Position numbers and translations under genes: made by a program
DNA from: Bacteroidaceae bacterium
Lineage (GTDB): Bacteria > Bacteroidota > Bacteroidia > Bacteroidales > Bacteroidaceae
Direction of reading: 5' to 3'
DNA: 57,589 bases
Assembly (NCBI GenBank): GCA_017541025.1
Contig: JAFXZY010000032.1
Location: 1 to 57,589 of the forward strand
Shown: positions 18,113 through 40,151 of the stretch, piece by piece
Layout: every line of letters begins with the position of its first letter
Numbering within the stretch: the stretch's first letter is position 1
The notes under the pieces: generated by a model
Database searches by the model: none
What the model saw: the letters and a program-made list of their open reading frames with translations, nothing else
What the model was told of the DNA's origin: nothing

Positions 18113-19147
18113 ATGAAAAGAACAACATTAGCCCTTATGTGCGCAATGCTGCTGGCTGCATCGGCTTGTGTCAGAGCCCAGATTCAGTGCCATGCCGTGT
18201 GTTTTTACAATCTCGAGAACCTCTTTGATACGGTTCACGACTACGGCAAGAACGACTTCGACTTTCTGCCTAACGGATCGTTTCATTGGACCAGGAACAA
18301 GTATGAGAACAAACTGAAGAATATGGCTCAGGTTATCTGCGACCTGGGTACTGACAGAGTTCCGTACGGAGCCAGCATCATTGGTGTTTCTGAGATTGAG
18401 AACGACAAAGTGCTGGAAGACCTATGCGCCCAACCCAACATGAAGGAGCGTGGCTATAAGTTTGCCCACCTGGAAGGTCCCGATAAGCGAGGTGTAGATT
18501 GTGCGCTCATTTACAATCCCAAAGCCTTTCGGGTAACAAAAGTATTCCATAAATTATATGTTTACGAGAACGGAGATACAACACATGCCACCCGTCCTTT
18601 CCTTTGTGTACAAGGTGTTCTGGCGGGCGATCCGCTGACTGTGATTGTATGCCACTTGCCCAGCAGAGGCGTTGAGAGTCCCTTCCGTGAAGCGGGAGGA
18701 AGACAAGTGAGAGCACTCACAGACAGTATTCATGCTGCCGATCCAGATATGCGTATTATGGTAATGGGCGATATGAACGACGACCCCGATAACAAATCTA
18801 TGGCCAAGTGTTTGGGTGCCAGACGGAACATGAAGGATGTAAACGACGGTGACTTTTACAACCCGTGGTGGGATGTGCTGCGTAAAAAGAGTCAGGGCAC
18901 TCTTTCTTATCAGGGTGCTTGGAATCTTTTCGACCAGATTGTGTTAAGCAGGAATCTGCTGGATTTAGACGGGTCAAAAGACTACAGCCATCTTACCCTT
19001 TACAACTATCATATCTTCAAGCGTGACTATCTGATACAGCAGAAAGGAAAATACAAAGGTACGCCCAAACGTACTCATTCAGGCGGTGTGTGGCTGAACG
19101 GATACAGCGACCATTTGCCAACTGTTACCTATCTGGTAAAAAAATAA
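18113..19147 (+). CDS. secreted endonuclease/exonuclease/phosphatase-family hydrolase
   Basis: A 344-residue enzyme of the DNase I/EEP superfamily, metal-dependent phosphodiesterases and phosphatases. Catalytic landmarks are intact: FYNLENLFD (Asn33), GVSEIEN (Glu94), VCHLPS (His181), MGDMNDDP (Asp220, Asn222) and SDHLP near the C-terminus. The chosen start gives a signal peptide (ALMCAMLLAASACVRAQ); the Cys within it could make it a lipoprotein, but the lipobox is weak. It is divergent from the TonB receptor operon. The substrate may be nucleic acid or another phosphoester, and sequence alone does not decide. Confidence 0.88.
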   Translation: MKRTTLALMCAMLLAASACVRAQIQCHAVCFYNLENLFDTVHDYGKNDFDFLPNGSFHWTRNKYENKLKNMAQVICDLGTDRVPYGASIIGVSEIENDKVLEDLCAQPNMKERGYKFAHLEGPDKRGVDCALIYNPKAFRVTKVFHKLYVYENGDTTHATRPFLCVQGVLAGDPLTVIVCHLPSRGVESPFREAGGRQVRALTDSIHAADPDMRIMVMGDMNDDPDNKSMAKCLGARRNMKDVNDGDFYNPWWDVLRKKSQGTLSYQGAWNLFDQIVLSRNLLDLDGSKDYSHLTLYNYHIFKRDYLIQQKGKYKGTPKRTHSGGVWLNGYSDHLPTVTYLVKK

Positions 19148-36725: not shown

Positions 36726-37514
36726 TTACAAAGAGACTTTTGCCATTACGGGGAAATGTGTGGAAGGGAGGCGACGTTTATAAGAACCATCAGATTCCTT
36801 TGTAAAATATCCGTACTGCAATTGTCCATAAGCGTTGATGGTGACAGTCTTGGAAGCAAAAACAAAATCGAAACGGTCTGCAGCGTGGTTAGCCTCAAGG
36901 TCGAAGTTATTCACAGTTCCGTATTCCGCGCTTGCGACAGGTGCTTTCTTATAGCAGTCAAGATAACGGCTACTCAGTTTGGTGTAAGCTGATTTCTTCT
37001 CGTTCCCGCCCAGATTGCCAATAACAAAGAAGGGTAAACCTTCAGTATTTATCTCATCAACAGCAGCAAGGATACGTGTTGCCGATGTGCTGGCATTGCT
37101 GTTATCTGTAGAGAAGCATACATTAAAAACGAAGAAGGAAGCCTCTTCCTTTTTCAGCTTTACCCAAAAGCATGTGCTGCCCTCCGGCATGTCACTGACC
37201 TGACCGCTATCTGCCAGTTCAAGAGTCTTGCTGTATAGAATATCTCTAGCAGCTTTGTATGTTGACATTCGTTGAGTTAAATTATTAATCTGAACCTGTG
37301 TTGCGGACTGCAATCCCAGTACATCGGGTTGTTCAAAATTAAACATGTCGCTGATGTAGTTTCGACGGGTTGCCCACTTGTCACCTCCATCTCCGTATTG
37401 TTTTTCCTCGTCGGTTGAGGTAACGTAAAAACTGCCTATGTAAAGGTTCTGAGCAAAAGCGCAGAACGCAACCATAGATATGATGATGAATGATATTGTC
37501 CTTTTCATTGCCAT
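36726..37514 (-). CDS. EEP-family pseudoenzyme, secreted
   Basis: A 262-residue secreted protein (signal peptide SFIIISMVAFCAFAQ) with the fold pattern of an endonuclease/exonuclease/phosphatase domain. It is a close relative of the N-terminal domain of the upstream protein (shared WATRRNYISDMFNFEQPDVLGLQ; partner WATRKTYLINLVNFQQPDLFGVQ). Most catalytic residues are lost. Relative to the partner: Asn29 to Tyr30, Glu67 to Ser70, His163 to Cys133, Asp198 to Asn167, Asn200 to Gly169, Asp289 to Thr252. Only the RFDF aspartate (216) and the last His (253) remain. It begins 15 bases after the partner's stop, so the two are probably co-transcribed. A binding or regulatory role is more likely than catalysis. 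Confidence 0.8.
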   Translation of the reverse strand: MAMKRTISFIIISMVAFCAFAQNLYIGSFYVTSTDEEKQYGDGGDKWATRRNYISDMFNFEQPDVLGLQSATQVQINNLTQRMSTYKAARDILYSKTLELADSGQVSDMPEGSTCFWVKLKKEEASFFVFNVCFSTDNSNASTSATRILAAVDEINTEGLPFFVIGNLGGNEKKSAYTKLSSRYLDCYKKAPVASAEYGTVNNFDLEANHAADRFDFVFASKTVTINAYGQLQYGYFTKESDGSYKRRLPSTHFPVMAKVSL

Positions 37515-37529
37515 TTTTCGAATTAAGAA

Positions 37530-40151
37530 TTAATAGAGAACTTTCTTTGCGTTTACGATGTTTACACCTTTCTGCATTTTGCTCAAGCGTTGGCCTACAA
37601 GGTTGTAAATATCATTTTTCTCTTTTATCTTTTCATTTTTAATTGTATTGATTCCATCTTCCTCGCTGATGAACAATTTGACTTCCTGCGGTGTGCCGTT
37701 GTCGGTTGTCAAAGCGGCTTCAAATGCATTTGTAACGACGTTATCGGTAGTGTATTGAAAAGCATCGCCGTTAAGCACATAACCTCCGCTATAGCTGGTC
37801 TTCTTACCGAGGGTTCCTGTCAGTATGTAATCACCATATGTAAAGGCAGTTTTGGTGGGTGGAACGGCAATGGTAACATCGGATGCTTCAACATTAAATT
37901 CGTTTCCGGTGAGGTGATATAAACCAGGTGTGTAGGCTTGAAGCGAGGCACATGGCGTAATGGTGATAACAGTGTTACTTGTTTGCTCGGGAACAACCTC
38001 ATAGAACTGCAAATCCTCTGAAGATTCCACAGAGAATGGCAAGTATATGGTTCCCCACGCGTTGGCGGGTTCAAAACGATAGCTGACGTGGTCAGCAATA
38101 AACGCCACAGAAGAAGTGAAAGCATCAATGAGGGCAAGTTCGGGAAGATGACCACCCGCGTTGACATAGAAATTATAATTTGTAATATCGGAAGATGACT
38201 TCTTCTTTCCGAACGTTCCTTGGTATACGACCTTATGCTCTGGATTTCCGCCAAAGAGGGGATATGGGTCAGACAGTTCGCCTTCATTGATGTTCTGGAA
38301 GAAAATCATGTTGGAGACGCTCTTTCCTCGGTTAAGCATGGCAGTTAGTTCTCCGCGAGCTACATCGTTCAGAGTAAGCGCTGTAGCACCTTTTGCAGAG
38401 GTGGCATCTGATGCTGACCCGAAACCTGCTAACTGTTCTCCCTCCAGATAATAAATATACGAAGGAATGGCACTCATAGCCTTCACTTGTCTGCCCACAA
38501 TCTGTCCTGCATATTCCTTGTTCCCGCTGACGATTCCTACGTTGGCACAATAAGAAATCTTAAAGCCATCGTGGTTTACATATCCCAGGATACCTCCTGT
38601 ATTGGTGGTAGCACCATCTGAATGAACAGTTCCGTAATTGAGGCAATAAGAGATATTGTTTGCTGTTTGGTCGGCATATCCCGTAATTCCGCCTACGCTG
38701 TTGGTACCAGCATCGGAAAGTGTCCCAGTGAATGAACATCTTGTTACGGTAGAACTATTAAACAATGAACCTGCAATACCGCCCACGTGTTTGGTGTCTG
38801 CATTTGCCTTGCCAGTGTTGATATTTAAAGAAGAGTGCACATCCTTGATGGTAGAGCTGGAAGCATATCCTACAATACCATGCTCGCCAGTTCCCTCCTT
38901 AACGTTAAGTGTACCACTGAGACAGAATTCTTTGATAATAGCACCTGATGTAACACCGAATAGACCGGAATAACTCTTACCAGTATCTATGAGAAGATTC
39001 AGAATGGAATAACCTTGACCGTTAAACGTACCGGTATAGGGGTTACCACTTGTTCCTATGGGATTCCAATCAGTAACGTCGGTCATATCTATGTTATTCA
39101 ACAGAACTGCCTTAGCTGCGGAGTTCTGTCCAAATATTGACAATCCATTGACAATGCTTGCAAAAGCTTTCAGTTCACGTGCTGTAGAGATCTGGTATAT
39201 TCCGTTAACAATGGGTGGCTGTACGGTATCAAGGTCAGCCATATCAGGAATTCTTATGGAAAGTTTTGCTACCACGGGACTGTGGTCGGAATAAGCCCTC
39301 TGATGATAATCTGCTGTTCCTGCGGTGGAGAAGTAGCAAGGATTCAGTACACCATAATGGTTGACATCGAAGTTCTTGGTGACGAAAACGTGGTCGATAC
39401 GGCGCAACTCTCCGGAAACTGTACTGTAGCTGCCTGCATTGAAACCAGGACAAGTTCCATTGGTCATGAATTTCTGCTTGGCACGATGGAAACAATCATA
39501 GAGGAATCCTGAATTGTAGAACAACTTGTATGCATCCCCTGTCTGCACAGCATTATAGTCACCTGAAATGATGACAGGGACATTCAGGGTTCCGGCAATC
39601 TCCATAATCTTTTTCCTTATCAGGTAATAAGACTGCTGACGGTTTGTCTCGTCGAGGTCCATGTGCGTGTTGAAGTAATAGATGTACGAACCTATGACTT
39701 TGTCTATGAACTTGCCCCAGGTGCAAATACGATAGTATGTGGTGGAACCACCTTTGCTGGGGAAACCCTTAGATGGACTGTCTGGGGTATCACTCAACCA
39801 GAAGTCTCCATGATCTATAAGCATCATTCTCTCCTTTTTGTAGAAAATAGCAGAATGCTCACCGTTGTCTTTTCCATCGTTTCGACCAACGCCTATTCGT
39901 CCGTAGGCTTTCAGCCCGGCGTCCAAATCTGACATCTGTCCTTTAGTGGCTTCTTGTACACCAAACAGGTCGGGCTGTTGAAAATTCACCAAATTAATGA
40001 GGTATGTTTTTCTGGTGGCCCAACCATTGCCAGCGTCTGTGTCGCCGGAATTGCTGTACCTGACGTTATAGGTGATGACGCTGAATTCCTGGGCATGTGC
40101 CGAAATGTATGTCATCAGAATAACGAAAGAAAGAAATAATTTTTGTTTCAT
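37530..40151 (-). CDS. secreted EEP hydrolase fused to GLUG repeats and C-terminal tail
   Basis: An 873-residue protein with a signal peptide (LFLSFVILMTYISAHA). An intact EEP catalytic domain covers residues 23-300: TYNVR (Asn29), GVQEATK (Glu67), FNTHMDLDE (His163), SGDYNA (Asp198, Asn200), RIDHVF (Asp253), YSDHSPV (Asp289, His290). One GLUG block (about 313-620) opens with the same GIYQIS and AVLLNNIDM module as the giant GLUG protein. A beta-rich region (about 650-830) and a C-terminal tail (YNLVGQRLSKMQKGVNIVNAKKVLY) follow. It probably acts at the cell surface as a phosphodiesterase, such as a DNase or sphingomyelinase-like enzyme. The substrate is undetermined. No clear promoter was found upstream. 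Confidence 0.85.
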   Translation of the reverse strand: MKQKLFLSFVILMTYISAHAQEFSVITYNVRYSNSGDTDAGNGWATRKTYLINLVNFQQPDLFGVQEATKGQMSDLDAGLKAYGRIGVGRNDGKDNGEHSAIFYKKERMMLIDHGDFWLSDTPDSPSKGFPSKGGSTTYYRICTWGKFIDKVIGSYIYYFNTHMDLDETNRQQSYYLIRKKIMEIAGTLNVPVIISGDYNAVQTGDAYKLFYNSGFLYDCFHRAKQKFMTNGTCPGFNAGSYSTVSGELRRIDHVFVTKNFDVNHYGVLNPCYFSTAGTADYHQRAYSDHSPVVAKLSIRIPDMADLDTVQPPIVNGIYQISTARELKAFASIVNGLSIFGQNSAAKAVLLNNIDMTDVTDWNPIGTSGNPYTGTFNGQGYSILNLLIDTGKSYSGLFGVTSGAIIKEFCLSGTLNVKEGTGEHGIVGYASSSTIKDVHSSLNINTGKANADTKHVGGIAGSLFNSSTVTRCSFTGTLSDAGTNSVGGITGYADQTANNISYCLNYGTVHSDGATTNTGGILGYVNHDGFKISYCANVGIVSGNKEYAGQIVGRQVKAMSAIPSYIYYLEGEQLAGFGSASDATSAKGATALTLNDVARGELTAMLNRGKSVSNMIFFQNINEGELSDPYPLFGGNPEHKVVYQGTFGKKKSSSDITNYNFYVNAGGHLPELALIDAFTSSVAFIADHVSYRFEPANAWGTIYLPFSVESSEDLQFYEVVPEQTSNTVITITPCASLQAYTPGLYHLTGNEFNVEASDVTIAVPPTKTAFTYGDYILTGTLGKKTSYSGGYVLNGDAFQYTTDNVVTNAFEAALTTDNGTPQEVKLFISEEDGINTIKNEKIKEKNDIYNLVGQRLSKMQKGVNIVNAKKVLY

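Follow-up and report, generated by a model that had tools for sequence, protein, structure and literature searches.

The Locus

The window analysed here is a whole stretch of 57,589 nucleotides (contig JAFXZY010000032.1, assembly GCA_017541025.1) from a gut bacterium of the Bacteroidaceae. On its reverse strand, a gene for a large, active-looking protein with an EEP domain is followed directly by a gene for a small protein of the same predicted fold. The features of this gene pair are the following, in window coordinates:

36726..37514, minus strand: EEP-fold pseudoenzyme, 262 aa (fold by prediction)
37452..37514, minus strand: signal peptide of the pseudoenzyme, cleavage expected before Gln22 (read from the sequence by eye)
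37515..37529, minus strand: intergenic spacer of 15 bases between pseudoenzyme and partner
37530..40151, minus strand: active-looking partner, 873 aa, with signal peptide, EEP domain, GLUG-type repeats, a further C-terminal region and a tail (PF03372, 1.6e-14; PF07581, 5.5e-4)
39237..40088, minus strand: EEP domain of the partner, aa 22-305 (PF03372 and 4c1r match)
38232..39224, minus strand: GLUG repeat region of the partner, aa 310-640, limits approximate (Pfam Glug; common to long and short partner forms)
37533..37652, minus strand: last 40 aa of the partner, a tail similar to type IX sorting tails (genome-wide tail matches)

The EEP part of the partner matches PDB entry 4c1r in sequence at 9.7e-59, and the nearest relative of the protein by sequence is a sugar phosphatase. 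All 11 signature residues expected of an active EEP enzyme (see below) are kept in the partner in each of the 28 genomes that carry the pair. As a first-pass annotation of the window had noted, the small gene lies 15 bases behind a paralog that, judged by these residues, looks active. The partner has a long form of about 870-895 aa in 10 of the 28 genomes, with an extra segment ahead of the tail; in the other 18 it is shorter, at about 600-720 aa, and two of these are frame-broken. The partners of L059 and L060 lose their reading frame close to the 3′ end and terminate ahead of the tail, either through a real change or through an assembly error; both partners are included in every count given here.

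Conservation of the Gene Pair

Among the 139 genomes of the genus that were searched, the pseudoenzyme was found in 28, the source genome included. In every one of these it immediately follows the partner and is transcribed in the same direction. A search of the same 139 genomes with the EEP domain of the partner gave full-domain matches of at least 64% identity in these 28 and in no others, the next-best full-length match in the genus being at 45%. The pair is therefore conserved as a unit, as a functional reading of the first-pass annotation demanded. Many of the genomes are incomplete, so that absences of the pair are soft. G052, for instance, holds only the start of the partner, at a contig end. 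In G031, a 65-codon stub of the partner start (L070:6533-6760) lies between a phosphofructokinase and a GH2-like gene, both named by reading the sequences, and the pseudoenzyme was not found in this genome; this looks like a joint loss of both genes.

The paired genes overlap by 4 nt in 15 of the 28 genomes according to our script, or in 16 when the start of L058 is corrected, and these overlaps suggest translational coupling. The surroundings of the pair differ. With marker names assigned partly by reading of sequences, the nearest upstream marker gene is rnhB for 16 pairs, purH-like for six, PFK for three (two of them still near rnhB), M48-like for two and another gene for one. The constant element across these differing neighbourhoods is the pair itself. 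The pair of L056 occupies a purH-like site, like the window group, and its sequences cluster with those of rnhB-site pairs, possibly reflecting repeated use of a site. The 27 named carrier records, assigned to Bacteroidaceae, Prevotellaceae or Bacteroidales, come from MAGs or from uncultured assemblies, and many of their titles point to ruminants.

The search was widened to 399 genomes sampled from the family and 393 sampled from the order, scoring at most six candidates in each genome after a permissive initial screen, a procedure by which weaker relatives could be missed. Strong matches (E<1e-100) were confined to the genus: seven genomes of the family sample, the source genome among them, and the source genome alone in the order sample. 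Within these 399 and 393 genomes, the pseudoenzyme family was not found beyond the genus, where the best match had an E-value of 1.7e-35 vs. at most 1.3e-130 for the seven strong ones. The weaker matches that were inspected, 12 EEP open reading frames at 11 loci (10 outside the genus, one inside), look active: by eye, all 12 keep Asn29, Glu67, Asn161, His163, Asp165, Asp198, Asn200, Asp253, Asp289, and His290. His254 is kept in nine of them and is Tyr in three.

A Predicted EEP Fold Without the Active-Site Signature

The product of 36726..37514 is predicted to fold as a DNase I/APE1-type sandwich, which would make it a member of the EEP superfamily and agrees with the earlier claim that fold-defining segments are kept. 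Its C-terminal end corresponds to the last EEP strand, and a tail is absent in 28/28 orthologs. In profile searches, the window pseudoenzyme had no match to PF03372 even at E<=1, and thus did not reach the curated Pfam cut-off; the ortholog L046 had no match at 0.001. Being invisible to Pfam, similar dead EEP proteins may go unannotated in gut Bacteroidales. Chance similarity to EEP proteins was considered as an explanation and rejected.

Active EEP enzymes carry a signature made up of Asn, Glu, His, Asp-x-Asn, and Asp-His. We scored 11 signature positions, whose choice and roles we assume to carry over from DNase I and APE1, on a joint alignment of the 28 pseudoenzymes and the 28 partners. 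Six catalytic or metal-binding residues had been reported as replaced in the first-pass annotation. The replacement is real and the loss is larger than claimed, eight of the 11 positions being altered in the window pseudoenzyme, which consequently lacks the residue set of an active EEP enzyme. Across the orthologs, the Asn29 position holds Tyr (27 of 28) or Phe (one), the Glu67 position Ser (25) or Gly (three), and the Asp289 position Thr (24), Ala (three) or Ser (one). The His163 position is Cys in 22 pseudoenzymes and His in one; Asp is found at the Asp165 position in none. At the Asp198 position, Asn occurs in 10 proteins, Phe in six, Tyr in six, Asp in five, and Lys in one. The Asn200 position is invariably Gly and the His254 position invariably Phe, the latter being a weak marker because three of the 12 other EEP frames carry Tyr there. 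Finally, at least 27 of the 28 pseudoenzymes have gaps opposite residues 89-101 and most of residues 125-142 of the partner; these missing stretches may line the cleft.

Only Asn161, Asp253, and His290 are retained in all 28 proteins. The invariant Asp-His pair (Asp216 and His253 of the pseudoenzyme) leaves room for a protein that is still an enzyme and uses altered chemistry without the usual metal, and some supposed pseudoenzymes can catalyse reactions (PMC10211241). For the present protein we consider this improbable. The substitutions at the Glu, the second Asn, and the last Asp positions affect every ortholog, and these three positions are presumably metal or substrate ligands.

Selection and Origin

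The first-pass annotation described the frame of the pseudoenzyme as fully open, and this extends to all 28 orthologs, none of which has a stop or a frame-shift. It also proposed dN/dS as a check. By the Nei-Gojobori method, 378 pairs were compared, of which 202 are unsaturated in both genes. In these 202 pairs, the dN/dS of the pseudoenzyme has a median of 0.20 and a largest value of 0.47, indicating purifying selection, vs. 0.11 and 0.28 for the EEP domain of the partner. Among close pairs, the pseudoenzyme values are 0.078 (window/L042), 0.13 (L052/L055), and 0.25 (L057/L059).

The pseudoenzyme does change faster than its neighbour, the ratio of its dN to that of the partner EEP domain having a median of about 1.6 over the 378 pairs, and this could be read as the mark of a functionless, decaying copy. 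Such a reading is hardly credible and was rejected in view of the open frames, of dN/dS values of 0.05-0.28 in six pairs, of the 54 residues that are invariant in the mature protein, and of a simulation of neutral point changes in 300 frames, where 0.11 changes per site left 3% undamaged, and 0.28 and 0.5 left none. As far as sequences and a predicted model can tell, the product of 36726..37514 hence qualifies as a pseudoenzyme, with its fold kept, its catalytic motif lost, and selection maintained.

In a tree of the 28 orthologs (in which the rows L006_own and L007_own are worthless, being in the wrong frame or strand, with stops visible in L006), the pseudoenzymes form a single clade and so do the partners. 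The stem of the pseudoenzyme clade is long, at 2.1-2.2 changes per column. An AU test did not favour an origin of the pseudoenzyme from the partner over one from another EEP protein (p 0.41); the tree used had 10 of the 28 rows per group, and own-genome EEP rows other than the pair were left out. Between the window and L042, dS is 1.23 for the EEP domain of the partner and 0.37 for the pseudoenzyme, a hint of recombination within the pair.

Export Signals

In Bacteroidetes, an N-terminal Gln is the usual product of signal peptidase I (Q-rule; PMC5837995). The expected first residue of the mature pseudoenzyme is Gln in 28/28 orthologs; together with the signal read from the sequence, the fit to this rule indicates a putatively exported protein. 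The tail of the partner gives 24 matches at E<0.01 in its own genome, itself included and irrespective of position, and the same genome encodes a SprA_N protein (5.9e-216). The repeated occurrence of the tail and the SprA_N protein point to a probable role in type IX sorting, although none of the C-terminal sorting domain (CTD) models of Pfam and NCBIfam scored on it. By eye, the tail is present in 26 of the 28 partners, the exceptions being L059 and L060. At many loci of the rnhB type, large exported-looking proteins (about 850-1,900 aa) are encoded downstream of the pair. One of these, L053:813-6491 (minus strand), has no Pfam match at 0.001 and ends with the same kind of tail.

A Putative Partner of the Live Enzyme

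As the dead and the live genes are kept together in related species, the dead protein probably serves the live one. A role that depends on the partner, with binding as the simplest option, is favoured by the fixed pairing, the close spacing, and the export signals common to both proteins. We therefore lean, by a modest measure, toward the view that the exported EEP-fold pseudoenzyme is devoted to the phosphatase-like EEP enzyme of the preceding gene, with which it would work as a protein partner without being catalytic itself. The first-pass interpretation is partly supported, in that an exported EEP protein devoid of the catalytic set is maintained by selection beside an active-looking paralog; regulator, inhibitor, binder, and decoy are candidate roles. 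According to this model, translation of the two genes would be coupled and the two products would bind each other. Since only the enzyme carries a sorting-like tail, contact is placed in the periplasm, where the pseudoenzyme may hold the enzyme, stabilise it or tune it, either ahead of its export or in the course of it; alternatively, it may ride along with the enzyme to the surface. Pairwise identities of the pseudoenzyme and of the partner are correlated (r 0.44), a modest value that is confounded by species history. Against the partner reading, adjacent genes tend to be co-inherited anyway.

The order of the genes, enzyme then small protein, and their tight spacing are also what would be expected if the small protein were an immunity protein, a decoy or an antitoxin for a toxic nuclease. 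In a typical toxin-immunity pair, the toxin domain is C-terminal, and the immunity gene behind it is variable and unrelated to it. Here, the EEP part lies at the N-terminus of the partner, whose nearest sequence relative is a sugar phosphatase, and the small protein is itself an EEP homolog that is conserved, rather than variable, in 28/28 genomes. The immunity-like role put forward in the first-pass annotation is not supported by this arrangement, and we hold the whole group of explanations to be very unlikely.

The main rival to the partner role is a free-standing ligand binder, whose remodelled cleft would bind, but not cut, a phosphorylated glycan or lipid and pass it to the enzyme or to uptake, with no need for contact with the enzyme. 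Asn131, Asp216, and His253 in the cleft are invariant whereas most of the signature has otherwise been lost, the 11 former site positions as a whole exceed random sets in conservation (p 0.037), and glycoside hydrolase genes adjoin the pair in the window. However, the eight lost positions alone show no extra conservation relative to random positions (p 0.22), the two partner stretches are missing from the pseudoenzyme, and the neighbouring genes vary between genomes, which argues against a fixed glycan pathway. We regard the ligand binder as a possible but rather doubtful alternative. Invariant residues are not significantly enriched around the former active site (12 of 39 close to it vs. 37 of 191 distant from it, p 0.13, judged without coordinates); with p values of 0.13 and 0.22, no conserved patch marks an interface or a pocket.

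A stronger form of the partner role is a two-protein enzyme that cannot do without its dead EEP subunit. This subunit would bind the live EEP domain in the periplasm and keep it silent or folded until the tail engages the type IX system, and would then stay behind as an export chaperone or travel untagged. We consider this version unlikely; were it true, it would represent a homologous, pseudoenzyme-based checkpoint for a secreted phosphatase. More generally, if the asymmetry of the tail matters, the pair could show how a cell controls an enzyme that leaves via the type IX system.

Relation to Known Proteins

Among the closest known systems is BT3783, a mannosyl-6-phosphatase of Bacteroides thetaiotaomicron (PDB 4c1r; 3mpr gives nearly the same sequence match). 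In a structural alignment, the pseudoenzyme is 22% identical to BT3783, from which it differs by the lack of eight of the 11 signature residues and of the two partner stretches. The sphingomyelinase-like proteins of Leptospira also belong to the EEP superfamily. There, Sph1, Sph3, and Sph4 are paralogs of the active sphingomyelinase Sph2 in which some catalytic residues are absent (PMC4537108). In the accessible part of that source, a few residues are missing, some of the paralogs have reported activity and no fixed two-gene pair is described, whereas here most of the set is gone and the pair is fixed. MTMR13, a dead homolog, binds the live MTMR2 and raises its activity (PMC10211241). That is another setting, and in the present case binding is proposed from genomic evidence. 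The MTMR13-MTMR2 fold differs from that of EEP proteins.

Dead homologs that tune live ones and sphingomyelinase-like paralogs with some catalytic residues missing were hence already known. What appears to be new, on sequence grounds, is a fixed dead/live EEP pair in Bacteroidales, none being apparent by title among the literature matches listed. It offers a compact bacterial case of a pseudoenzyme, with 28 natural replicates in one clade, a fixed pair, and an active-looking partner from a structurally known family, features that make the role of the dead EEP domain directly testable with two purified proteins.

Other EEP proteins were also observed. A separate one (about 37-45% identity, E 1e-50 to 1e-66) was counted by hand in 46 of the 111 pair-less genomes vs. 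one of the 28 with the pair (G043); it perhaps acts as a replacement, or only reflects kinship. Tandem EEP genes occur three in a row at G070:C164:2347-4803 and two in a row at L129:4343-6076, both of the latter being active-looking by their motifs. Finally, the window itself holds a further EEP-like domain at 18368-18874 (plus strand), within a 405-aa frame and near the Pfam cut-off.
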